DNA of 64,000 nucleotides, taken from assembly GCF_000425645.1 (NCBI RefSeq), contig NZ_KE384430.1:186001-250000 (forward strand). Direction: 5' to 3'. Within the stretch, counting starts at the first letter, position 1. Each line of letters begins with the position of its first letter. This stretch comes from Gaetbulibacter saemankumensis DSM 17032. Its GTDB lineage: Bacteria; Bacteroidota; Bacteroidia; Flavobacteriales; Flavobacteriaceae. The notes below the pieces were generated by a model. The model was given only the letters and a program-made list of their open reading frames with translations, ran no database searches and had not been told where the DNA came from. Of this stretch, positions 13,872 through 31,777 are shown in pieces. The translations under genes were made by a program, and so were the position numbers.

Positions 13872-15206
13872 TTAGTAGTGACACTTACCACATTCTAAAC
13901 CTCCCATTTGAGCAGCTGTAAGCTTCTCTACACCATACTTCTTAGATAATTCTTCATGAATTTTCTCGTAGTAAGCGTTATCTTCAACTTTCACATTTGT
14001 TGTTCTGTGACAGTCAATACACCATCCCATTGTTAATGGAGCGTGTTGATAAAGAACTTCCATCTCTTCAACTGGACCGTGACAAGTTTGACATTCAACA
14101 CCAGCAACAGAAACGTGCTGTGAGTGATTGAAATAAACAAAGTCTGGCAAGTTATGAATACGCACCCATTTTATTGGTTGTGTTTCTCCTGTATACTTTT
14201 GCTCAGCATCATCCCATCCTGCAGCTTTATATACTTTCTTGATTTCGCCATCGTAAAACTCTTTAGAATATTCTGCTGATGTTTCACCGTTATACTCATA
14301 AATTGATTTATGACAGTTCATACAAACATTTACAGAAGGAATTCCTGATGTTTTACTTACACGTGCAGATGAGTGACAGTATTTACAATCGATACCGTTA
14401 TCACCAGCGTGAATTTTATGTGAGAAATGAATTGGTTGCACTGGTTGATACCCTTGATCAACACCAACCTGCATTAAATATCCGTAAACGAAATAAGCAC
14501 TTGAAAGCAATAAGAAAATAGCCATAACCAACATTAAAAATTGATTCTGAATAAAAGCTTTCCAAAGTGGCGTTCTTTTTGTTGCCTCTGCTAACTCGAT
14601 ATTCTGAGCTTCAGCAAAACGACGTAATGTTTTATTAACTAAATAAAGACCTAAAGCTAACAACAAAAATAAGATTGCTAAGGCTCCCAAAATTAATTCA
14701 TTTGAAATACCGCTAGAATCTGAGGTTGATTGTGTTGCTACTGCAGTAGCAGCGGCAGGAGCTTCTTTCTTTTCTTCAGCCGTATACGCTAAAATATTAT
14801 CAATATCTTCTTCTGATAACTGAGGAAATGCCGTCATCGCAGCACCACCATATTCGTTGTACACTTTATTAGCGTAAGCATCGCCAGATTTAATAACACC
14901 CGCACTATTATGAATCCAATCATAAAGCCATTGTTTATCTAAACCTTCGTCGTCTGCCAAACGTTGCTCTACGTTACGTAAAGCCGGACCGGTCATCTTT
15001 TTATCAAGCTGATGACAAGCAGCACAATTCGCATTAAATAATGATTTTCCTTTTGCCGGGTCTCCTCCTTGAGCAGAAAGAGAGGCTGTAAACAGTAATA
15101 AAATAGATAAGCTTAAACCAAGAACGTTTTTACTTAATGTACGGTGAGTCACCTTTCTCATATTGTCGGTTATATTAACTTCTAAACTTTGGTATGATTT
15201 TTTCAT
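13872..15206 (-). CDS. actA: Alternative complex III subunit ActA, multihaem cytochrome c
   Basis: A 444-residue protein with six CXXCH motifs. CAACH (residues 61-65) lies in an N-terminal monohaem domain after a signal sequence. After two hydrophobic segments (near 170-190 and 216-240) come CKYCH, CMNCH, CQTCH, CIDCH and the C-terminal CGKCH. The five C-terminal haems correspond to the classical pentahaem ActA; the extra domain looks like a fused mono-haem cytochrome c. An alternative ATG at 15161 (MRKVTHRTLS) would give 429 residues and a more usual signal-peptide length; I keep the longer frame but the start is uncertain. First gene of the act-cox operon, with a -7 box upstream. Confidence 0.93.
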   Translation of the reverse strand: MKKSYQSLEVNITDNMRKVTHRTLSKNVLGLSLSILLLFTASLSAQGGDPAKGKSLFNANCAACHQLDKKMTGPALRNVEQRLADDEGLDKQWLYDWIHNSAGVIKSGDAYANKVYNEYGGAAMTAFPQLSEEDIDNILAYTAEEKKEAPAAATAVATQSTSDSSGISNELILGALAILFLLLALGLYLVNKTLRRFAEAQNIELAEATKRTPLWKAFIQNQFLMLVMAIFLLLSSAYFVYGYLMQVGVDQGYQPVQPIHFSHKIHAGDNGIDCKYCHSSARVSKTSGIPSVNVCMNCHKSIYEYNGETSAEYSKEFYDGEIKKVYKAAGWDDAEQKYTGETQPIKWVRIHNLPDFVYFNHSQHVSVAGVECQTCHGPVEEMEVLYQHAPLTMGWCIDCHRTTNVKVEDNAYYEKIHEELSKKYGVEKLTAAQMGGLECGKCHY

Positions 15207-15245
15207 TTAATCAAAAAGAAAAATATACAGTTATAAAATCTTGGG

Positions 15246-15253
15246 CAAAAGTA
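15246..15253 (-). promoter_or_regulatory. Promoter -7 box for the act-cox operon
   Basis: TACTTTTG on the minus strand, 39 bases upstream of the longer actA start. Matches TAnnTTTG; no TTG at -33. Confidence 0.5.
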
Positions 15254-15351
15254 ACACTTAAAGTGGATTTAGGAAATGTTCATGAACTCTTAACATTTAA
15301 TTTAGAGACATTCTAAATAAATAAATAATCTTATTTTAAACTTATAACGTA

Positions 15352-15359
15352 TACATTTG
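15352..15359 (+). promoter_or_regulatory. Promoter -7 box for the SPOR gene
   Basis: TACATTTG, a perfect TAnnTTTG match, 26 bases before the TTG start at 15386; divergent from the act-cox promoter. Confidence 0.5.
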
Positions 15360-15385
15360 TACTAACAATATTAAAATAAAAACAA

Positions 15386-15766
15386 TTGAATTTGAAAATC
15401 AACATTTTAGGCTTTTTAGTTGTATTTACCGCATGTGTTTTCAGTCATGCTCAACAAGGTCAGGTTAGCATCAATCAAGACAAAAACATTAGTAAATTAT
15501 TAGAAATTAAAAAGGATATGAACAAAAACGATTCCGATAGATATAAAATACAAATCTATTCAGGCAATCGCAAGGAAGCCGAAGCGGCTCAAAATGACTT
15601 TAATAAGGAATTTGAAGATTGGCCTACTATTATGCAATACGAAACTCCAAACTTTAAAATATGGGCTGGAAGTTTTAGAACCCGCCTGGAAGCCGATCGT
15701 GCTCTTAAAAAAATAAAAAGACAATTCCCAAGTGCTTTTATTTTTAAGCCGAAAAAGAGCTCATAG
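15386..15766 (+). CDS. Exported SPOR-domain protein
   Basis: A 126-residue protein beginning at TTG (15386; a second TTG two codons on is also possible), with a signal peptide ending near residue 22 (FSHAQ). Residues from about 50 form a SPOR domain: SDRYKIQIYSGNRKEAEAAQ, then NFKIWAGSFRTRLEADRALK and FPSAFIFKP. SPOR domains bind denuded glycan strands of peptidoglycan, often at division sites. It stands alone between the divergent act operon and its own terminator. The domain is clear; the specific role is not known. Confidence 0.85.
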   Translation: MNLKINILGFLVVFTACVFSHAQQGQVSINQDKNISKLLEIKKDMNKNDSDRYKIQIYSGNRKEAEAAQNDFNKEFEDWPTIMQYETPNFKIWAGSFRTRLEADRALKKIKRQFPSAFIFKPKKSS

Positions 15767-15784
15767 CAACATGGTATAACAATC

Positions 15785-15820
15785 AAAAAAAGCGCTAAAA
15801 ATTTATTTAGCGCTTTTTTT
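15785..15820 (+). terminator. Terminator of the SPOR gene
   Basis: AGCGCTAAA / TTTAGCGCT stem (9 base pairs, 6-base loop) flanked by A-run and T-run, 25 bases after the stop codon. Confidence 0.88.
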
Positions 15821-16000
15821 ATGTCCTTTCTAAACTTTCAAATCGACGGCTTTTAAGATGTACCTTATAAAAATTCTTATTAAAACTACATAGCACCTGT
15901 CTAAGATTCTATTTAATCACCTTATTATTTAAAACAATACCAAAATCAGCTATAACCTAAACAATTGCCTCCTGATGCTACAAATACAACCTTAGATAGA

Positions 16001-16031
16001 CAAAAAAAGCACTTGTTTTCACAAGTGCTTT
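16001..16031 (-). terminator. Terminator of rimP-nusA-infB
   Basis: Perfect 11-base-pair stem (16006-16016 with 16021-16031) with a 4-base loop and seven T on the minus strand, 23 bases after the infB stop. The stretch 15822-16000 between this and the SPOR terminator holds no recognisable feature. Confidence 0.9.
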
Positions 16032-16053
16032 CTCTTTTTTATAATTACTTAAA

Positions 16054-18918
16054 TTACTTAAGCTTCTTTTTAACTTCAACTTCGTGGAAGGCTTCGATTA
16101 TATCACCCTCCTTAATATCGTTGTAGTTTTTAATTTGCATACCACAGTCGTAACCTTTAGATACCTCCTTAACATCATCTTTAAATCGTTTTAATGATGC
16201 TAATTCGCCGGTATAAACCACTACCCCGTCTCTAATAATACGAACGCCTGAACTTCTAAGTATTTTACCATTGGTAACCATACAGCCGGCAATAGTACCT
16301 ATTTTAGAAACTTTAAAGATTTCTCTAATTTCAGCAGTACCTGTTACCTCTTCTTTAAATTCCGGAGATAACATACCTTCCATAGCATCCTTCAAATCGT
16401 TTATCGCATCATAGATGATTGAGTATGTTCTAATATCGATTTCTTCTTTATCAGCTGTTGCTCTTGCATTTCCAACAGGACGCACATTAAATCCGATAAT
16501 AATCGCATCAGAAGCCGATGCTAATAATACATCACTCTCTGTTATAGCCCCAACTCCTTTATGCAAGATATTAACTTGAATTTCTTCAGTCGATAATTTC
16601 TGGAATGAATCTGTTAAAGCCTCAACAGAACCATCCACATCACCTTTAAGGATAATATTTAACTCCTGGAAATCTCCTAATGCAATACGACGACCAATTT
16701 CATCTAATGTAATATGACGTTGTGTACGAACAGATTGCTCACGTTGTAACTGAGAACGCTTAGCTGCAATTTGTTTTGCTTCACGCTCATCTTCAAATAC
16801 ATTGAATTTATCACCTGCCTGTGGCGCACCATCTAAACCTAAAATTGATACAGGTGTTGACGGACCTGCTTCAGTCACATCATTTCCACGCTCATCATGC
16901 ATCGCTTTAACCTTACCACTGTTCTTCCCTGCCAATACGTAATCACCAACTCTTAAGGTCCCTGCTTGTACTAATACTGTAGCCACATAACCTCTACCTT
17001 TATCAAGGAAAGCCTCTACTACAGTACCAATTGCCGGTTTATTAGGATTTGCTTTAAGCTCTAATAATTCAGCTTCCAGTAATACTTTCTCTAATAATTC
17101 TTTTACACCAGTACCCATTTTCGCAGAGATATCGTGTGATTGAATTTTACCACCCCAATCTTCAACTAACAGGTTCATGTTTGCTAAACCTTCTTTTATT
17201 CTATCTGGATTAGCATCTGGTTTATCTATCTTGTTAATTGCAAATACAATAGGCACTCCTGCAGCCTGCGCATGAGAAATAGCCTCTTTTGTTTGTGGCA
17301 TAATATCATCATCTGCCGCAGCAACAATAATAGCTATATCGGTTACCTGAGCACCACGGGCACGCATCGCGGTAAAGGCCTCGTGACCAGGTGTATCTAA
17401 GAAGGCTATTTTTTGTCCGCTTTCTAATTCAACACCATAGGCACCAATATGCTGTGTAATACCACCGGATTCTCCAGCAATTACATTTTCCTTACGGATA
17501 TAATCCAGAAGCGACGTTTTACCGTGATCGACATGTCCCATCACTGTAACAATTGGAGCACGCTCTTTTAAATCTTCTGGTTTATCTACAACTTCCTCTA
17601 TTGATTCTTCGATATCGGCAGTTACAAATTCCACCTGATAACCAAACTCCTCAGCAACAATACTTAACGTTTCTGCATCTAAACGTTGGTTCATAGTAAC
17701 CATCATACCTAAAGACATACATGCGGAGATAATCTGTGTTACAGACACATCCATCATGGTAGCCACCTCGTTTGCAGTAACAAACTCGGTTACTTTAAGT
17801 ATTTTACTTTCTGCTGCTTCTTGCTGAAGATCTCTTTCAGTTTGATCTCTATGCTGATCTCTCTTATCCCTTCTGTACTTAGCACCTTTTCCTTTTGAGG
17901 ACTTACCTTGAAGCTTTTCAAGTGTTTCACGCACTTGTTTTTTAACATCTTCCTCGCTAGGATCTTCTTTTACTATTGGACGCCTTGCTTGACCTGGTTT
18001 ACCTTTAAAACGATCGTTCTTACCACCTGGTCCACGATTATTTCCACCAGTATTGTTATTACTATTTGGTGCTCCAGCTTTACTTATACGACGACGCTTT
18101 TTCTTATTTCCAGAAGCGTCTCCCCCTTTAGCTTCAGGCTTTTTATCTTCCTTCTTCTTTTTAGGCTTATTAAACTGTGATAAGTCAATTTTATCTCCAG
18201 CAATTTTTGGTCCAGTAAGCTTTTGGTATTTTGTTTCAACACGCTCTTCAGTAATCTGCTCACCATCTTCCGTTGTAATGGTGTTTTTCTTAACTACAGG
18301 CGCATCTTTTTGTATAGGTTTCTCCTCTTTTTGTGGAGCTTTAGGAGCTTCTTCCTTCTTCTCCTTAACAACTTCTTTCACTTCTGCCTTTTCAGGCTTC
18401 ACTACCTCTTCTACCTTTTCAGGTTTTGTTTCTTCCTGAGATTTTTGAACTGGTTGTTCTACTTCTTCTTTTACAGGCGCTTCTTGCTTAACAATTTTTT
18501 CTTGAGCTGGCTCTTCCTTTACAGGAGTTTCCTGCACAGGTTCAGACTTAACCTCTTCTTTTTTCTTAGGGTTAAGATCTATTTTACCAACTTGTTTAGG
18601 TCCAGAAAGTACTTTAGAGGCTCTAACTATTTCTTCTTTTCTTGCTGCTTCCTTCTGCTTTTCTTCAAGCTCACGTTCGCGCTGTTCACGCAATACTTCC
18701 TTTTCCTTTTGTTTTGCTTCGCTAACCTCTTTAGACGCTACTTTTTTACTTGCATCTGTTTGAAATTCATCAGACAGTACATTGTATACATCTTCTGTAA
18801 TTTTTGTAGTCGGTCGCTTTTCAATTTCGATGCCCTTAGAATCTAAAAATTCTACAGCACGGTCTAAAGAAATGTTAAGTTCGCGTAATACTTTATTTAA
18901 TCTTATTGTTTCAGCCAT
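16054..18918 (-). CDS. infB: Translation initiation factor IF-2
   Basis: A 954-residue GTPase that places initiator tRNA on the 30S subunit and promotes subunit joining. Residues 1-50 form the IF2_N motif. Residues 60-370 are a long Lys/Glu/Pro-rich, low-complexity linker. A second IF2_N module ([20 protein letters not shown]) is near residue 372. The G domain starts at GHVDHGKTS (461-469), with DTPGHEAF and NKIDKP motifs, followed by the two beta-barrels and the C-terminal initiator-tRNA domain. Last gene of rimP-nusA-infB, 29 bases after nusA. The long linker gives long open frames on the opposite strand that are not genes. Confidence 0.97.
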
Positions 18919-18947
18919 AAATCGCCTTTAAAATACTCAAATATATG

Positions 18948-20180
18948 TTATTCTTCGAATTCTTCCCTAAGAATATTAATAACTTCTTTAATTGTTTCTT
19001 CCTCTAAATCGGTTCTTTTTACTAAATCTTTAATATCCTGCTCTAAAATACTCTTAGCGGTATCTAGACCTACTTTACTAAATTCTTCAATAATCCAACC
19101 TTCTATTTCATCAGAGAACTCTGCTAATTCAACATCTTCCTCTGCTCCTTCTCTAAACACATCAATTTCATAACCTGTTAGCTGTCCTGCTAAACGTATG
19201 TTGTGTCCGCCTCTACCAATAGCTTTACTTACTTCTTCTGGTTTTAAAATTACCTCGGCACGTTTTGTTTCTTCATCAATTTTTATTGAAGTTACACGCG
19301 CTGGACTTAAAGCTCTGGTGATATATAATTGTAAGTTATTAGTGTAATTAATAACATCAATGTTTTCGTTACCTAGCTCTCTTACAATACCATGAATTCT
19401 CGATCCTTTCATACCAACACAAGCACCAACCGGATCGATTCTATCATCATAAGAATCTACAGCTACTTTTGCTTTTTCTCCTGGTATTCTAACAACATTT
19501 TTAATAGTAATTAAACCATCGAAAACTTCTGGAATTTCTTGTTCAAATAATTTCTCTAAGAAAACAGGGGAGCTTCTTGACATGATTATAGCAGGTTTTG
19601 CTCCTTTTAATTCAACACTGTCAATAACACCCCTTACGTTATCACCTTTTCTGAAAAAGTCTGAAGGTATTTGCTTATCTTTTGGTAATACAATTTCGTT
19701 CCCTTCATCATCCAACAAAATTACAGCTCTATGACGAATATGATGTACTTCAGCGGTATAAATTTCGCCTACTAAATCTTTAAACTGCTTATAGATAATG
19801 GTATTATCGTGCTCGTGAATCTTCGATATTAAGTTTTGACGCAAAGCTAAAATAGCACGTCTTCCTAAATCAATAAGTTTAACTTCTTCAGAAACGTCTT
19901 CACCTACTTCAAAATCTGGTTCAATTTTACGAGCTTCAGTTAAAGAAATTTCTTGATTTGGATCTTCAACCTCACCATCGGCTACTACAACTCTATTTCT
20001 CCAAATCTCTAAATCTCCTTTATCCGGGTTTACAATAATATCGAAATTATCATCATCGCCATATTTCTTTTTTAAAGCACTTCTAAACACATCCTCTAAA
20101 ATTGCCATTAACGTTACTCTGTCAATTAGCTTATCGTCTTTGAATTCTGAAAAAGATTCAATTAACGCGATATTCTCCAT
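18948..20180 (-). CDS. nusA: Transcription termination/antitermination factor NusA
   Basis: A 410-residue RNA-polymerase-binding factor that modulates pausing, termination and antitermination. The N-terminal polymerase-binding domain is followed by an S1 domain (about 135-200), KH1 (VGMKGSRIHGIVRELG) and KH2 (IGRGGHNIRLAGQLTGYEID). It lacks the acidic AR repeats that extend E. coli NusA to 495 residues, as usual outside the gamma-proteobacteria, but keeps an acidic C-terminal tail. It lies 13 bases after rimP. NusA could autoregulate this operon through the hairpin at 20666-20691 (inference). Confidence 0.96.
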   Translation of the reverse strand: MENIALIESFSEFKDDKLIDRVTLMAILEDVFRSALKKKYGDDDNFDIIVNPDKGDLEIWRNRVVVADGEVEDPNQEISLTEARKIEPDFEVGEDVSEEVKLIDLGRRAILALRQNLISKIHEHDNTIIYKQFKDLVGEIYTAEVHHIRHRAVILLDDEGNEIVLPKDKQIPSDFFRKGDNVRGVIDSVELKGAKPAIIMSRSSPVFLEKLFEQEIPEVFDGLITIKNVVRIPGEKAKVAVDSYDDRIDPVGACVGMKGSRIHGIVRELGNENIDVINYTNNLQLYITRALSPARVTSIKIDEETKRAEVILKPEEVSKAIGRGGHNIRLAGQLTGYEIDVFREGAEEDVELAEFSDEIEGWIIEEFSKVGLDTAKSILEQDIKDLVKRTDLEEETIKEVINILREEFEE

Positions 20181-20193
20181 AACTCTTATTGAA

Positions 20194-20655
20194 TTAAAAT
20201 TTAATCATAACTTTTGCTTCTACAATATCTTCGTAAGCAATATTTGCTTGCTTTTTTACAGTTACTTTACCTTTACCTATAGGTTTTGGCTCTCTAACTT
20301 TCCACTCTAAAGTGATGTTTGTTTCGGTTGCTAGCATTAAAGTGCCTTCAATTTTCTCTGTAGCTGTTTTAACTTTTAAATCTCTATTAAGATTTTTAGC
20401 ATATTGTCGCTTATTCACTAAAGGAGCAGCGGCACCCGCCGACATGACTTCTAAAGAAAAATCTTGCTCTTCACGATCTAAATTATGTTCGATAGCACGA
20501 CTAACAAACATACAATCCTCAACCAAAACACCATTATCACCATCAACAACCACTTTTATGTGATTATCTGGCTGCACAGTAAATTCTATTAAAAATAGAT
20601 CCGGTCTCTCAACCAAGGCTGCGTCTAATAAATCTTTAACGGTATCTTTAAACAT
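20194..20655 (-). CDS. rimP: Ribosome maturation factor RimP
   Basis: A 153-residue protein needed for 30S subunit maturation. The N-terminal alpha/beta domain includes NHIKVVVDGDNGVLVEDCMF and the SLEVMSAG motif typical of RimP, followed by a C-terminal SH3-like barrel. First gene of the conserved rimP-nusA-infB operon. The ATG lies 10 bases after the U-run of a terminator-like hairpin in the leader. Confidence 0.95.
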   Translation of the reverse strand: MFKDTVKDLLDAALVERPDLFLIEFTVQPDNHIKVVVDGDNGVLVEDCMFVSRAIEHNLDREEQDFSLEVMSAGAAAPLVNKRQYAKNLNRDLKVKTATEKIEGTLMLATETNITLEWKVREPKPIGKGKVTVKKQANIAYEDIVEAKVMIKF

Positions 20656-20665
20656 TTTTTATTAT

Positions 20666-20691
20666 AAAAAGAGGGGACTTTCCGTCCCCTC
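20666..20691 (-). promoter_or_regulatory. Terminator-like hairpin in the rimP leader (candidate attenuator)
   Basis: On the minus strand a perfect GC-rich 8-base-pair stem GAGGGGAC / GTCCCCTC with a 5-base loop is followed by TTTTT, then ATAATAAAAA and the rimP ATG. It is downstream of the probable rimP promoter (-7 box at 20718-20725), so it lies inside the leader RNA of the operon. The upstream tRNA-Gln gene already has its own terminator at 20838-20873. Regulatory role is inferred. Confidence 0.6.
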
Positions 20692-20717
20692 GTTCTTAAT
20701 TTTTCCTTTCAACGGTG

Positions 20718-20725
20718 CAAATATA
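20718..20725 (-). promoter_or_regulatory. Promoter -7 box for rimP-nusA-infB
   Basis: TATATTTG on the minus strand, 62 bases upstream of the rimP ATG and 26 bases upstream of the attenuator-like stem. Confidence 0.55.
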
Positions 20726-20837
20726 AAACTTTTTATTGGTTTTTAAAGTATTACGATTAAAATTCTATGTTAGAAACCCATACACTCAAACACCATTCTA
20801 CTTTTGAGATAAAAAAGATAATCTCACAAGATTTAAA

Positions 20838-20873
20838 ACAAAAAAAAGTCTTAACAATATTGCTAAGACTTTT
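20838..20873 (-). terminator. Terminator of tRNA-Gln
   Basis: AAGTCTTA / TAAGACTT arms (20845-20853 with 20864-20872) plus an inner CAA/TTG extension, with seven T on the minus strand, 11 bases beyond the tRNA 3' end. Confidence 0.8.
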
Positions 20874-20883
20874 AAAACAACTG

Positions 20884-20956
20884 TTGGCCTACTAGGGCTC
20901 GAACCTAGACTCTTCTGGACCAAAACCAGACGTGTTGCCAGTTACACCATAGGCCA
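20884..20956 (-). tRNA. tRNA-Gln (anticodon UUG)
   Basis: A 73-base cloverleaf on the minus strand: acceptor TGGCCTA / TAGGCCA, anticodon stem TCTGG / CCAGA around loop TTTTGGT (anticodon TTG), and T-arm CTAGG-TTCGAGC-CCTAG. Discriminator A; CCA is not encoded. It has a full-consensus promoter upstream and its own terminator. Confidence 0.96.
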
Positions 20957-20973
20957 ATTCCTCATTGCGGGTG

Positions 20974-21003
20974 CAAATTTAAAACAAACTTTTGTTTCTG
21001 CAA
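20974..21003 (-). promoter_or_regulatory. Promoter of tRNA-Gln
   Basis: TTG (minus strand, at 21001-21003), 19 bases, then TAAATTTG (20974-20981): exact match to the Flavobacterium -33/-7 consensus, 18 bases before the mature tRNA 5' end. Confidence 0.75.
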
Positions 21004-21104
21004 GTATTTTTTAAAAAAATATTTTCACCAAACTTAACGTTTACTTAAAAATATATTGAATATCATATTTATTACTAAATTCGCCAAAGCAAATAAAAAA
21101 TCAT

Positions 21105-24100
21105 ATGACCTCATTTAACTTTAAAAAATGGAATACCATTCTAGGGTGGGTTTCTTTTTTAATAGCCTTAATAACATACAGTTTAACTGTAGAACCTACT
21201 GTTAGCTTTTGGGATGCCGGAGAATACATTTTAACCTCTGCAAAATTAGAAGTCGGCCATCCTCCAGGAGCACCACTGTTTCAAATGATAGGGGCTTTCT
21301 TTTCTATGTTTGCCCTTAATTCTGGCCAAATAGGCTTTATGATGAACATGATGAGTGCCATTGCTAGTGCATTTACCATCTTATTTATGTTCTGGTCTAT
21401 TACCTTACTTTTAAAAAAACTAATTTCTGAAAAAGAAGACGTAACAAAAGATAAAGGTATTGCTATTTTGGGCAGTGCTTTAGTCGGTAGTTTAGCTTTT
21501 ACTTTTACAGATTCGTTCTGGTTTAATGCCGTTGAAACTGAAGTATACGCCATGGCTGCTTTAATCATGTCTGCCATGTTCTGGCTAGGATTACGCTGGG
21601 AACACGACATGAACAAGCCTCGAGGCAATCGTTGGTTAATTTTAATTTCATTTATAATAGGACTTTCTTTTGGGGTGCATTTTATGGGATTATTAACCAT
21701 TCCAGCCATAGGTCTTATTTACTATTTTAAAAATTACAAAACTGTTACTCTTAAAGGTTTTATTGTCGCCAATGTTGCTGCAGTGGCGGTTTTATTATTC
21801 ATATTTAAACTTTTAGCACCTAATATCTTAAAAATATTTAGTGCCTTCGAAATATTTTTTGTCAATACCATTGGGCTTCCATTTAACTCAGGTTCGATCA
21901 TTGCAGGCATCCTACTTATTGGAGGCATTTATTATTTGCTTAAATACACCAGAAAAAAAGGTTATGTGCATTTAAACACAGGAGTATTATGTTTAACCTT
22001 TGTTATTATCGGATTTTCCACTTGGTTAATGCTACCAATCCGTGCCAATGCCAATACGGTTGTTAATGAAAACAATCCTTCAAGCGCCCGTGAACTTTTA
22101 GCCTATTACAACTTAGAACAGTATCCTGAAACACATTTGTTTTACGGACCACAGTTTACCGATCAATATGCTTATTTAGATGAAAACAATCCTTATGTAG
22201 ACGACAAACCGAAATACGAAAAGGATGAAGAAAAAGGTAAATATGTGGTTGTTAACGACTATAAAGGTGCTAAACAAAATTACAATTCTAAGCACGCTTC
22301 ATTATTACCAAGAATGTGGAGTGCCGAACACGCCGAAAACTATATGATGTTCTCCGGGTTTTTAAAATTCAAATTAAAACCTGAATATCAAATGGAAAAC
22401 GAACTACGTTCTGCCGTAGCGAATTTTAGAAATGATGTTAATCAAGGAAATGTAGACTACCAGGATTATAATAATTTCCTTAAACGTTTTAAAAATTACA
22501 TAGACATAGAGAAACCTAGCCTATGGGATAATGTAAAATATATGTTCCAATACCAGCTAGGCTATATGTACTGGCGTTATTTTATGTGGAATTTTTCAGG
22601 GCGTCAGGACGACATTCAAGGTCGTATGGACAATCATGGTAACTGGATTACTGGAATAAAACCACTCGATTCAAAAATATTGGGTTATTCACAGGAGAAC
22701 CTTCCAAGTGATGTATTAAATAACAAAGGAAGAAACACCTACTACATGTTGCCTCTAATTTTAGGGCTAGTTGGCTTCTTCTTCTTATTTAACACTAACA
22801 AAAAAATCTTCTGGACTATGCTGGTGTTTTTCGTGTTTACCGGTGTAGCAATTCAAGTTTACACCAACGTTCGCCCATTCGAACCTCGCGAGCGTGATTA
22901 CTCGGTGGTAGGATCATTTTATGTATTCGCAATATGGATTGGATTTGGGGTCTATGCCATTTACGATACTCTTAAAAATTACATTGCTGCGAAAAACCTA
23001 ACTGCAGGTATCACCACAGCTATTTGCCTTGTTCTTGTTCCGGGTATTTTAGCTGCCAATAACTGGGATGACCACGACCGTTCTGATAAATATACCGCTG
23101 AAGCAATGGCTAAAATGTATTTAGATTCTTGCGAAGAAAATGGCATTTTATTCACTATTGGAGATAACGACACCTTTGCGCTTTGGTACGCCCAGGAAAT
23201 AGAAGGCTACCGTACAGATGTTCGTATTGTAAATACCAGTTTATTCCAAACAGACTGGTATATCGATCAAATGAAGCGACAGGCCTACGAAAGTAAACCT
23301 ATTCCTTCTCAATTAACGCACAATTTATACAAATATGGAACTAACGATTATATTGTTATTGAAGATGTTATTAAAGACACATTAGACATAAAACAATTTT
23401 TAGATTTCGTTGCTAGCGATAATGCCAAAACAAAATACAAATACATTTTACAACAGCGTGGCATCGACTTATCTCAGGTTAGAAGGCAAGATTTAAATGC
23501 TAGCTATATGCCTACACCCCATTTACGCATACCCGTAAACAAAGAGAATGCCTTAAAATCGGGTATTGTAAAAGCCAAAGACGCTGATAAAATAGTCCCT
23601 TATATCGACATTAAAGTTAGCGGTAATGCCCTTTACAAGAACCGACTATTAATGTTAGATGTGATTGCTAATAACAACTGGGAACGCCCCATATATTTTA
23701 CAGGCGGAAGCTTTGGCGACGATGATTATTTATGGATGAAAGACTACTTACAGCTAGATGGTTTATGTTATAAATTAGTTCCAATAAAAACCCCTATCGA
23801 TCGTGCAAACCCTTTCGACATGGGTCGCATAGACTCCGATTTAATGTATGAAAAAGTTAAAAAATGGGATTGGGGTAACAGCGGAAGCCCTGACATTTAT
23901 CATGATCCTGAAACCCGCAAAAACGCCATTACTTATAGAGGTAATTTAGCTCGTTTAGTACAGGAATTAATTAACGAAGACAAACTAGATAAAGCCGAAG
24001 AGATAGCAGATATTGCTATGACTAATATGCCTGTTGACTATTTTGGTTACTACACGCTTTTAGAGCCCTTCATTGGTGCTTACTATGAAATTGGCAATCA

Positions 24101-24413
24101 GGAAAAAGCAAGACAGCTATTTAAAGATGTGGCCGTAAAATATCAGGAAAACCTGATCTGGTATAGCAGCTTAACCATTGCCAATCAGGAACGTTTATTT
24201 GAAGAGATTTACACAGACATCCAACGCTACAAAGCACTAGTAGATGTTTTGGTAAAATATGATCTAGAATTTGCTGAAACCGAAGGTGATATCTTTAACA
24301 ATCACTTAATGATGTTTAAGCATTTCTACGGAGATGATCCTGAGGAAGAAATTGAAATACAGGACGATCTTGATTCTATTATAGAATTAGGACACGATAG
24401 TACAATAAAGTAA
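21105..24413 (+). CDS. DUF2723 membrane protein, predicted protein O-mannosyltransferase (GT117, TMEM260-like)
   Basis: A 1102-residue membrane protein. The N-terminal DUF2723 domain includes VEPTVSFWDAGEYILTSAKL and VGHPPGAPLFQMIGAFFSMF. The first acidic Asp/Glu lies in the luminal/periplasmic loop, where glycosyltransferases of this fold bind the lipid-linked sugar. About a dozen hydrophobic helices follow in two blocks (about 10-320 and 545-680), then a soluble C-terminal half with TPR-like helices (near 965-1060). DUF2723 is the family of eukaryotic TMEM260, a protein O-mannosyltransferase, so transfer of a sugar to exported proteins is a reasonable inference. It lies 3 bases before a polysaccharide deacetylase gene. 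The donor sugar and targets are unknown. Confidence 0.85.
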   Translation: MTSFNFKKWNTILGWVSFLIALITYSLTVEPTVSFWDAGEYILTSAKLEVGHPPGAPLFQMIGAFFSMFALNSGQIGFMMNMMSAIASAFTILFMFWSITLLLKKLISEKEDVTKDKGIAILGSALVGSLAFTFTDSFWFNAVETEVYAMAALIMSAMFWLGLRWEHDMNKPRGNRWLILISFIIGLSFGVHFMGLLTIPAIGLIYYFKNYKTVTLKGFIVANVAAVAVLLFIFKLLAPNILKIFSAFEIFFVNTIGLPFNSGSIIAGILLIGGIYYLLKYTRKKGYVHLNTGVLCLTFVIIGFSTWLMLPIRANANTVVNENNPSSARELLAYYNLEQYPETHLFYGPQFTDQYAYLDENNPYVDDKPKYEKDEEKGKYVVVNDYKGAKQNYNSKHASLLPRMWSAEHAENYMMFSGFLKFKLKPEYQMENELRSAVANFRNDVNQGNVDYQDYNNFLKRFKNYIDIEKPSLWDNVKYMFQYQLGYMYWRYFMWNFSGRQDDIQGRMDNHGNWITGIKPLDSKILGYSQENLPSDVLNNKGRNTYYMLPLILGLVGFFFLFNTNKKIFWTMLVFFVFTGVAIQVYTNVRPFEPRERDYSVVGSFYVFAIWIGFGVYAIYDTLKNYIAAKNLTAGITTAICLVLVPGILAANNWDDHDRSDKYTAEAMAKMYLDSCEENGILFTIGDNDTFALWYAQEIEGYRTDVRIVNTSLFQTDWYIDQMKRQAYESKPIPSQLTHNLYKYGTNDYIVIEDVIKDTLDIKQFLDFVASDNAKTKYKYILQQRGIDLSQVRRQDLNASYMPTPHLRIPVNKENALKSGIVKAKDADKIVPYIDIKVSGNALYKNRLLMLDVIANNNWERPIYFTGGSFGDDDYLWMKDYLQLDGLCYKLVPIKTPIDRANPFDMGRIDSDLMYEKVKKWDWGNSGSPDIYHDPETRKNAITYRGNLARLVQELINEDKLDKAEEIADIAMTNMPVDYFGYYTLLEPFIGAYYEIGNQEKARQLFKDVAVKYQENLIWYSSLTIANQERLFEEIYTDIQRYKALVDVLVKYDLEFAETEGDIFNNHLMMFKHFYGDDPEEEIEIQDDLDSIIELGHDSTIK

Positions 24414-24416
24414 GGC

Positions 24417-25097
24417 ATGACCTTAACCCCGATAAAAACACCGTTAGTTGCTAAGAAGATGTTCCCAAATTTTATTTGGGACATCTCCACTAACGAGAAA
24501 TTCATTTATCTTACTTTTGATGATGGTCCGACACCGGAAATAACAAATTGGGTTTTGGATACATTAAACACATACCAAGCAAAAGCTACTTTCTTTTGTA
24601 TAGGTAAGAATATTGAAAATCATCCCGATATTTTTCAAAACATTATTCGTTATGGACACGCTATTGGCAATCATACCCACAACCATGTAAAGGGCTGGAA
24701 AACGAAAGCTGAAGCATATTTACAAAACGTCGATTTGGCTGCTAGCGCCATAAATAAGCATTCTAATAACACCCCCTTACAGCAAAAAGCAAAATTATTT
24801 CGTCCGCCATATGGTCAAATAACACCAAAACTCGGCAAATTACTATTAGCTAAAGATTATAAAATTATTATGTGGGATGTTTTATCTTTCGATTGGGATT
24901 ATAAAACAACTCAACAAGACTGTTTGGAGAACGTGATTTCTAAAACTACCAACGGAAGTATTGTTGTGTTTCATGACAGCATAAAAGCCTCAAAAAATAT
25001 GCAATATGCTCTTCCAAAGACTTTGGAGTACTTTTCAAAAAATGGTTACAGCTTTAAATCATTAGACTTTAAGCATACTGCTGAACAATACCAATAA
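24417..25097 (+). CDS. Polysaccharide deacetylase (NodB domain, CE4)
   Basis: A 226-residue CE4 esterase-like enzyme. The catalytic and metal motifs are present: TFDDGP (Asp35/Asp36), the His-x3-His metal pair His86/His90 in HTHNH, FRPPYG, and the late catalytic His in VVFHDSIK. There is no signal peptide at the N-terminus, so a cytoplasmic or membrane-side location is likely. It starts 3 bases after the DUF2723 gene, which points to a joint role in glycan handling. Its last 29 bases overlap the end of the convergent thioredoxin-fold gene. Confidence 0.9.
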   Translation: MTLTPIKTPLVAKKMFPNFIWDISTNEKFIYLTFDDGPTPEITNWVLDTLNTYQAKATFFCIGKNIENHPDIFQNIIRYGHAIGNHTHNHVKGWKTKAEAYLQNVDLAASAINKHSNNTPLQQKAKLFRPPYGQITPKLGKLLLAKDYKIIMWDVLSFDWDYKTTQQDCLENVISKTTNGSIVVFHDSIKASKNMQYALPKTLEYFSKNGYSFKSLDFKHTAEQYQ

Positions 25098-29771: not shown

Positions 29772-29795
29772 TAAATACACTTCACATTTAAGAAC

Positions 29796-29830
29796 AAAAA
29801 AGCGATTCAAATATTTGAATCGCTTTTTTG
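29796..29830. terminator. Bidirectional terminator between polA and the YgiQ gene
   Basis: AGCGATTCAAAT / ATTTGAATCGCT perfect inverted repeat flanked by A6 and T7, serving both convergent genes. Confidence 0.92.
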
Positions 29831-31777
29831 TTAGCTCCTTTTCTTATTAGACCTAAATTTAGCTTTATTTTTCCGCTGATTAAATGGTACGGCATCATCA
29901 AAAGTATGTTTTGGCTTACCTGGTTTATTTTTTCTCCAGCTATCGTTTTCGGGTAATAATACTTTTAATAAATCCTGACGCCCTAGCTTACTCAATGTAT
30001 TTCGAATCCACGCTTTATTTTCATCTTTATACCAAAAGAAAAAGCGATGTTGCTCATCTTTTTCTTTTCGGGTTTTTGGCGTTCTTACTTTCTTAAGAGT
30101 ATAGGGATGATATCCACTATAATAAATTACCGTAGCAACTGTCATAGGCGTTGGAGTAAACCCTTGCACCTGTTCCAACTGAAAGCCCATATCTTTAGTT
30201 TCGGCAGCCAGATTAGCCATATCTTCAGCTTCACATGCCGGATGATTAGATATAAAATAAGGTATCAGTTGTAATTTCAATTTATGCTTCACATTTATCT
30301 TATCAAAACGTTCTTTAAACTTATGAAAATATTTAAATGACGGTTTACGCATCAATTTCAATACTGGATCACTGGTATGTTCAGGAGCCACTTTTAAACG
30401 TCCCGAAATATGCTTGGTCATCACCTCCTCCGTATAATCATCTAACTCTTTGGCATCGGCATTTTTATTGAATTCCGGCACCAACATATCATGTCTAATC
30501 CCACTTCCTATAAATGATTTTTTCACCTTTGGGTGACTATCTACTGCCTGATACAATTGGGTTAATGGCTTATGAGAGGTATCCAGATTACTACAAATAA
30601 CTGGTGAAATGCATGAAGGCGCTACGCACTTATCGCAAATCGATTGTACTTTTCCCTTCATTTTATACATATTGGCACTTGGCCCGCCAATATCAGATAA
30701 ATATCCTTTAAAATCAGGCATATTGGCTACCGTATCCACTTCTTTTAAAATAGATTCCTGACTTCGTGATGCAATAAACTTTCCTTGGTGAGCCGAAATA
30801 GTACAGAAACTACAACCCCCAAAACATCCCCGATGGATATTTATGGAAAACTTAATCATTTCAAACGCCGGTATCGGACCACGCTTATTATACTTGGGGT
30901 GTGGTAATCGCGTATAAGGCAAATCGAAAGACGCATCAATTTCTTCCTCGGTCATAGTAGGATATGGGGGATTAATCATCAGAGTCCTACCTCCTACTTC
31001 CTGAAAAATACGACGCGCTGCCAATTTATTAGATTCCTGCTCAATAATTTTAAAATTCGAAGCGTATGCTTTCTTATCCATCAAACAGGTTTCATGAGAG
31101 ACAATCTCAACATCTTCCCAATTACTATTTTTTGGAATGCTTTCATCTGCATTTAAAAGGACAGCCGTTTGGCTAATGGTTTTTAAACTATCAAAGGGCA
31201 CGCCTTTTTGCAGTAAGCGAACAATTTCTCTTAAAGGCTGTTCTCCCATACCATATACCAACATATCGGCTTTAGATGTTTCTAATATGGTAGGCATGAG
31301 TTTATCACTCCAATAATCGTAATGTGTTACGCGACGCAAAGATGCTTCAATCCCGCCAATTAAAACAGGTACATCCGGCCACTTCTCCTTTAAAATATTA
31401 GAATATACCGTGGTAGCATAGTCTGGTCGAAAACCAATATCTCCATTTGGCGTATAGGCATCTTTATCCCGACGTTTTTTATTAGCATTATAATTACTAA
31501 TCATCGGATCCATACAACCTCCTGTGACGCCAAAAAATAATTTGGGTCTACCTAGCTTTACAAAGTCCTGAAGATTATCGTTCACATTAGGCTGTGGCAC
31601 TATAGCAACTTTTAAACCATAACTCTCTAGTATCCTACCTATTACCGCAGGGCCAAACGATGGATGATCAACGTAAGCATCACCACTAAACAGGATAACA
31701 TCGAGTTCTTCCCATCCCCGTATTTTCACCTCTTTGTTCGTGGTAGGCAACCAATCTGAAAGTTTTAATTCTTGCAT
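29831..31777 (-). CDS. YgiQ-family radical SAM protein
   Basis: A 648-residue protein. The N-terminal region (MQELKLSDWLPTTNKEVKIR) and the B12-binding-like domain are those of the YgiQ family, and the radical SAM cluster ligands are Cys318-x3-Cys322-x2-Cys325 in HRGCFGGCSFCTISAHQG. The C-terminal DUF3362-like region ends in a basic tail. Radical SAM enzymes cleave S-adenosylmethionine; the YgiQ substrate is not established. It lies alone, convergent with polA, with a -7 box only 7 bases from its ATG. Confidence 0.93.
   Translation of the reverse strand: MQELKLSDWLPTTNKEVKIRGWEELDVILFSGDAYVDHPSFGPAVIGRILESYGLKVAIVPQPNVNDNLQDFVKLGRPKLFFGVTGGCMDPMISNYNANKKRRDKDAYTPNGDIGFRPDYATTVYSNILKEKWPDVPVLIGGIEASLRRVTHYDYWSDKLMPTILETSKADMLVYGMGEQPLREIVRLLQKGVPFDSLKTISQTAVLLNADESIPKNSNWEDVEIVSHETCLMDKKAYASNFKIIEQESNKLAARRIFQEVGGRTLMINPPYPTMTEEEIDASFDLPYTRLPHPKYNKRGPIPAFEMIKFSINIHRGCFGGCSFCTISAHQGKFIASRSQESILKEVDTVANMPDFKGYLSDIGGPSANMYKMKGKVQSICDKCVAPSCISPVICSNLDTSHKPLTQLYQAVDSHPKVKKSFIGSGIRHDMLVPEFNKNADAKELDDYTEEVMTKHISGRLKVAPEHTSDPVLKLMRKPSFKYFHKFKERFDKINVKHKLKLQLIPYFISNHPACEAEDMANLAAETKDMGFQLEQVQGFTPTPMTVATVIYYSGYHPYTLKKVRTPKTRKEKDEQHRFFFWYKDENKAWIRNTLSKLGRQDLLKVLLPENDSWRKNKPGKPKHTFDDAVPFNQRKNKAKFRSNKKRS

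Follow-up and report, generated by a model that had tools for sequence, protein, structure and literature searches.

Known Leaders of the rimP–nusA–infB Operon

The rimP-leader was described by Naville and Gautheret in 2010 in PMC2965389; the main text of that paper calls it the most ubiquitous attenuator and gives it a GGGc(...)gCCC stem, which is conserved, and no antiterminator. Both RimP and NusA are mentioned there as possible sensors, NusA being preferred; neither the word "Bacteroidetes" nor "Flavobacter" occurs in this main text. The passage on this operon in PMC6511841 describes the E. coli operon as regulated by its product NusA, with two terminators located before rimP. As summarized in a section of a review (PMC12288461), NusA of B. 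subtilis sets its own expression via NusA-stimulated termination in the leader. Distal interruptions of the U tract are described in a part of PMC8060035 for NusA- and NusG-dependent terminators of B. subtilis. The passage on rimP in the 2021 transcriptome study of Flavobacterium psychrophilum (PMC9723704) reports a structured, conserved 5' element at this gene, which is present in other Flavobacteriaceae genera.

The literature search, outside which most subscription journals and supplements lay, found no termination or NusA data for a rimP leader of Bacteroidota and, beyond the papers cited here, no description of the stem considered below, of its conservation, or of the rimP-less cases. The termination in the nusA leader of B. 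subtilis was reported by Mondal et al. in 2016; it is not known to involve an antiterminator. Attenuators in the rimP–nusA–infB leader have already been published for other bacteria.

Hairpin in the rimP Leader

The window is the whole stretch of 64,000 nucleotides of Gaetbulibacter saemankumensis DSM 17032 that was analyzed. Between the promoter box and the ATG of rimP, it contains an RNA hairpin of the terminator type (Table 1).

Table 1. Features of the rimP–nusA–infB locus and its upstream region; positions are those of the window.
Feature	Position	Strand	Evidence and details
infB (IF2), 954 aa; third operon gene	16054..18918	minus	PF11987, GTP_EFTU
nusA, 410 aa; probably both client and regulator of the hairpin	18948..20180	minus	PF08529 NusA_N, E 9.7e-35; KH domains
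rimP, 153 aa; first operon gene	20194..20655	minus	PF02576 RimP_N, E 5e-9
Interrupted U tract TTTTTATAAT	20661..20670	minus	T5 = 20670-20666; direct reading
Candidate attenuator hairpin	20671..20691	minus	5' arm GAGGGGAC 20691-20684, loop GGAAA 20683-20679, 3' arm GTCCCCTC 20678-20671
-7 promoter box TATATTTG, Bacteroidota TAnnTTTG type	20718..20725	minus	Direct reading
Separate terminator-like hairpin behind tRNA-Gln, outside the candidate attenuator	20844..20873	minus	Terminator scan
tRNA-Gln gene, upstream of rimP	20883-20956	same as rimP	

The letters, coordinates, and distances of the hairpin given in the original prediction proved right when the minus strand was read directly. Ten bases lie between the end of T5 (20666) and the rimP ATG (20655), and the distance from the stem to the ATG is 15 nt. 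The placement of the hairpin between a probable -7 box and the rimP ATG was likewise confirmed, and the box recurs in the relatives: in 110 of 110 Flavobacteriaceae leaders, the TANNTTTG box is found 15–40 nt before the stem, versus 1.4 expected from mononucleotide shuffling, and 24–28 nt separate the box from the stem. The claim that the tRNA-Gln gene has a terminator of its own agrees with the terminator-like hairpin behind it. Transcription would be expected to start near 20710-20714, and the predicted short transcript, if terminated, would be about 45 nt in length. The position of the -7 box argues against a transcription start on the downstream side of the hairpin.

The fold of the window leader has an energy of -19.2 kcal/mol (z -3.45 versus 200 shuffles). 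When the leader was folded together with 60 nt of rimP, the pairing probability of the stem was at least 0.998, and no competing antiterminator structure was visible in the pair probabilities of this region. With up to three mismatches allowed, the stem occurs once in the window, versus 0.03 expected, and it is present at one place in the whole 3.09 Mb genome. A terminator scan of positions 15000–25000 revealed 17 sites, versus a mean of 6.6 in shuffles; the leader hairpin has the highest number of G-C pairs, jointly with its own mirror on the plus strand. Two other structures of the window can be mentioned: a bidirectional terminator-like hairpin on the downstream side of infB (15784-15821) and a long perfect palindrome with A/T flanks at 29793-29832, which is probably a bidirectional terminator.

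In the whole window, Rfam at the gathering cut-off detected tRNAs only. In the region 20500–21100, at E up to 10, there was no match near the gathering score apart from the tRNA, and the rimP leader family was not among the matches. This family, which we take to be RF01770, has the same gene context by name.

The hairpin resembles the rimP-leader as presented in the main text of PMC2965389 in its position in the leader of the same operon, in the terminator hairpin with a G-rich 5' arm and a C-rich 3' arm followed by a T stretch close to the gene start, in the unusual conservation of the stem across species, in the absence of a visible antiterminator, and in the role proposed for NusA. The 15 nt between the hairpin and the gene fall within the published range of 4–130 nt. 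The two differ in the stem itself: the published motif is GGGc(...)gCCC, whereas the window has GGGGAC(...)GUCCCC, in which an A-U pair separates the G run from the closing C-G pair. The metY–rimP spacer of E. coli, in which PMC6511841 places the terminators t1 and t2, is comparable: in E. coli K-12, GGGC-TTTAG-GCCC-T7 was read by eye shortly before rimP. The E. coli leader differs in having a second, upstream hairpin AAAGCCCCG/CGGGGTTTT with the inverse motif and in having promoters around metY. The autoregulation of B. subtilis NusA, as outlined in PMC12288461, likewise involves intrinsic termination in a leader reading into nusA; the dependence on NusA is reported there and inferred here. 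The F. psychrophilum element is also transcribed and structured, located 5' of rimP, and without an Rfam match; the rimP passage of PMC9723704 gives neither its sequence nor a mechanism. Very likely, the F. psychrophilum element is a hairpin of the window type.

Conservation within Flavobacteriaceae

The comparison included 110 leaders from RimP-guided loci, namely the window itself (L002) and L003–L111, some of whose species are the same or near-identical; L001 was dropped, being the same place as L002, and L163 was dropped because of its short contig. Together with 34 further leaders read directly, 144 leaders were parsed, and the hairpin is present in all of them. Among the named loci, the RimP closest to that of the window belongs to Aestuariibaculum (86% identity). 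The stem GAGGGGAC/GTCCCCTC was found in 95 of the 110 leaders, GAGCGGAC/GTCCGCTC in 14, and GAGAGGAC/GTCCTCTC in one; natural stem variants include GAGCGGAC/GUCCGCUC and GAGGGGAC/GUCCUCUU.

The mean pairwise identity, determined for the 93 distinct leaders among 108 with 5-nt loops, is 0.965 in the arms, 0.988 over the seven bases that directly follow the stem, 0.75 in the loop, and 0.50 in the spacer before the stem. At the four-fold sites of rimP, it is 0.442 (92 genes without L111, ungapped, one-codon length differences ignored). In the set of 76 distinct sequences among 90 rimP genes of exactly 153 codons, the stem is identical throughout (1.0), and the values for the spacer and the four-fold sites are 0.52 and 0.46. 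The compared species share ancestry, and so do the spacer and the four-fold sites used as a yardstick. Judging by these identities, the stem is constrained far more strongly than the sequence around it. For comparison, 140 other terminator-like hairpins were collected from 80 named loci, and the most widespread stem among them recurs in 9 loci.

A covariance model (R1) of 37 positions was built from 33 leaders on alignment A2, which omits L086, with its 3-nt loop, and L104. It matched at E <= 0.1 in 194 of the 249 family genomes, and a rimP match was found in 235 of the 249. The leader context was checked for the 150 of these 235 genomes that were listed: in the 116 genomes listed for both searches, the R1 match always lies directly upstream of rimP on the same strand, 2–19 positions before the rimP match, and in the remaining 34, direct reading revealed the hairpin in every case. 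In the search of the phylum, 55 of 296 genomes had R1 matches at E <= 0.1, and 28 of these 55 are Flavobacteriaceae; weak matches outside this family were not taken as homologues. Second or third weak R1 matches in some family genomes (e.g., G108 and G243) could represent either the palindrome matched in antisense or additional sites.

The pairs were counted in the 144 leaders by direct parsing; alignment A3 was left out since it mixes in palindrome antisense matches. Pair 4 is G-C in 116 leaders, C-G in 14, G-U in 13, and A-U in one, and pair 1 is G-C in 130, G-U in 13, and A-U in one. The loop varies from 3 to 7 nt. In 13 of the 144 leaders, the stem is GAGGGGAC/GTCCTCTT, in which G-U keeps the RNA pairing and breaks the DNA symmetry. 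Alignment A2 alone indicated one covarying pair of eight because the other pairs never vary, and the covariation evidence within the family is narrow. Outside the family, pairs 1–3, 6, 7, and 8 also change. Compensatory changes, G-U pairs, and loops of 3–7 nt favor an RNA element over a DNA operator.

rimP Leaders of Other Families

Sixteen of 20 rimP leaders from other Flavobacteriales have a G-rich stem of the same type, six of them an identical one. The other four are all the sampled leaders of the family f2 (L263, L274, L275, and L278), in which GGC/GCC-like stems were noted by eye before a T run. The f2 hairpin remains terminator-like with a quite different stem, so the stem can apparently be replaced wholesale. 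For other families in the class and phylum, many loci were found to have their own stem at the same place, and in f8 and f9 it is again GAGGGGAC; in several loci of those other families, the scan found no stem, and these readings do not amount to a phylum-wide count. Some forms form a bridge to the published motif, namely GGGGC(...)GCCCC in f58 and GGGC(...)GCCC in f32; the motif GGGc(...)gCCC fits some leaders of other Flavobacteriales and those of f32. In some relatives (L148, L212, L213, and L221), the hairpin is much farther from the rimP start.

Genomes without Detected rimP

Nineteen rimP-negative genomes were followed, 14 from the family and five from the phylum; eight of them have a NusA_N match, and the other 11 are uninformative. 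At the order level, 66 genomes have no RimP_N match, 20 of which were listed and 15 followed. Genomes were classed as lacking rimP by means of Pfam and protein searches; there are weak sub-cut-off matches in three f32 genomes, and a very divergent RimP is possible elsewhere. The G040 genome, a single contig given as 100% complete, shows neither rimP nor NusA_N, and 10 of the 14 rimP-negative family genomes also show no NusA_N; this joint absence in such family genomes is probably due to missing or masked sequence.

Among the 23 genomes with nusA and without detected rimP, 11 have a terminator-type hairpin before nusA and nine do not. Three are unreadable: the contig ends before the leader in L233 and L259, and L257 contains N, a rimP-like frame seeming to end just before nusA. 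The 11 genomes with the hairpin are L232, L234, and L236 (Flavobacteriaceae), L247 (f62), L252 (f53), L253 (f59), L245 (f57), and L235, L237, L238, and L239 (f32). The GGGGAC/GUCC-type stem is kept in L232, L234, L247, and L253. The L236 stem is bulged, and the L245 stem is different and located farther upstream of nusA. The parser missed L236 and also L252, with its short G run, and folds showed both hairpins; the first scan missed L245. ARAGORN detected tRNA-Gln upstream in five of the 11 genomes (L232, L234, L236, L247, and L252), giving the order tRNA-Gln, leader, nusA. In these five and in L253, nusA is preceded by a promoter box as well as by the hairpin, so that five of six such leaders stand behind tRNA-Gln; with rimP-less genomes of this kind, nature itself provides a test of whether the leader serves rimP or another gene.

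The presence of the hairpin before nusA where rimP is undetected points to NusA or IF2, rather than RimP, as the client. RimP as the sensor is unlikely for the same reason, to the extent that undetected rimP genes are truly absent.

In nine of nine very small genomes of f63 (0.3–0.6 Mb; L246, L258, and L288–L294), nusA is kept and no G-C hairpin was found before it, which means that the hairpin is dispensable there. Judging by their size, these are probably genomes of insect symbionts, and the attenuator seems to have been lost along with genome reduction.

Proposed Mechanism

Taken together, the element is probably a promoter-proximal attenuator of rimP–nusA–infB acting as an intrinsic terminator, the Flavobacteriaceae form of the rimP-leader, set by NusA. 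RNA polymerase would start at the TAnnTTTG promoter and, within about 45 nt, make the GAGGGGAC/GUCCCCUC hairpin and, behind it, the U tract UUUUUAUA, which is weak and interrupted. The polymerase would then either free a very short RNA or continue into rimP–nusA–infB. With no visible antiterminator, the choice would probably be set by Nus factors: high NusA would aid the suboptimal terminator, and the expression of nusA–infB would fall, and low NusA would let the polymerase pass.

The original prediction spoke of an autoregulatory attenuator and proposed an alignment of rimP leaders across Flavobacteriaceae as a check, in which the stem is clearly conserved. The attenuator part of the prediction is well supported by this conservation, the covariation, the box upstream, the lack of an upstream gene that needs the hairpin, and the published precedent. 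For NusA as the regulator, the support is only indirect and comes from the hairpin before nusA without rimP, the interrupted U tract, and the autoregulation of NusA in B. subtilis. In the tails of the 80 named relatives' leaders, the fraction with T at position 6 is 0.03, and none has T at position 8. At least seven T in eight were found in none of these 80 leaders versus 63 of 140 other hairpins, in a comparison that is rough, since the other hairpins had been selected to have five or more T in eight, each in whichever 8-bp register was found first. What the sequences show is the hairpin, its conservation, its position behind a promoter box, and a hairpin before nusA where rimP is undetected; that the transcript is terminated in vivo and that NusA acts as the sensor is inferred.

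A plain terminator would work without a fixed stem sequence, and more than termination may therefore be read from this one. It is conceivable, though doubtful, that NusA or another product of the operon reads the stem sequence-specifically as it leaves RNA polymerase and that the transcript of about 45 nt would serve as a dedicated feedback sensor. Such reading would explain why the stem has kept the sequence GAGGGGAC/GUCCCCUC, or one close to it, in the Flavobacteriaceae examined and in six of the 20 other Flavobacteriales leaders, despite drift in the spacer, the loop, and synonymous sites. The NusA-set attenuator preferred here has points against it: the lack of the hairpin in the nine f63 genomes, the different and more distant stem of the rimP-less L245, the other stems of the four f2 leaders, and the location of the hairpin only 15 nt from the start codon, which would allow effects on translation or mRNA decay.

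Alternative Explanations

An attenuator or pause site with a regulator other than NusA, e.g., NusG, the leading ribosome, or the infB product, seems unlikely. The infB gene normally follows nusA (in the rimP-less genomes, this gene order is assumed) and would be an equally good client of a hairpin found before nusA where rimP is missing, and the NusG-dependent terminators treated in PMC8060035 also have distal U-tract interruptions; nevertheless, NusA is the one named for this operon in the relevant passages of PMC2965389, PMC12288461, and PMC6511841.

It is rather improbable that the hairpin is a translational or mRNA-stability element, which would shield the 5' end of the mRNA or set the access to the rimP start. 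In the 110 closest leaders, the window included, only 13–18 nt indeed separate the hairpin from the rimP start, and the conserved tail runs into an A-rich stretch before the start codon. However, the same hairpin occurs far from this start in the four relatives mentioned above and precedes nusA when rimP is absent, and the stem is followed by a conserved U run, which is a feature of terminators.

A mere terminator of the upstream gene, or an insulator against read-through, is very improbable and was rejected on the basis of the neighbor orientation and the promoter position. A tRNA-Gln gene does lie upstream on the same strand, as it does within 500 nt in 16 of 109 relatives, but here it is followed by its own terminator-like hairpin, and no tRNA was found within 500 nt in 93 of the 109. 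The nearest upstream open frame of at least 100 codons is on the opposite strand in 106 of the 109 leaders, according to a crude open-frame scan in which one locus was too short to be counted. Moreover, the promoter box stands between the upstream gene and the hairpin. The divergent neighbors, the box before the hairpin, and the separate terminator-like hairpin of tRNA-Gln indicate that the leader hairpin is part of the transcript of the operon itself.

A palindromic DNA operator for a dimeric repressor is hardly credible and was rejected: although the inverted repeat is perfect, lies just downstream of the expected start site, and keeps its DNA symmetry through the compensatory changes as well, the loop length is not constant, so that the half-sites would be shifted in helical phase, and 13 of the 144 leaders are asymmetric by G-T.

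Significance

The near-frozen stem, together with its natural covariants, makes sequence-specific recognition directly testable. The rimP-less genomes with a hairpin before nusA speak against RimP among the sensor candidates proposed in 2010. NusA and IF2 are central factors, and in a phylum where no experimental work on such attenuators was found in the literature, a very short hairpin close to the promoter appears to act as a brake on the operon encoding them.
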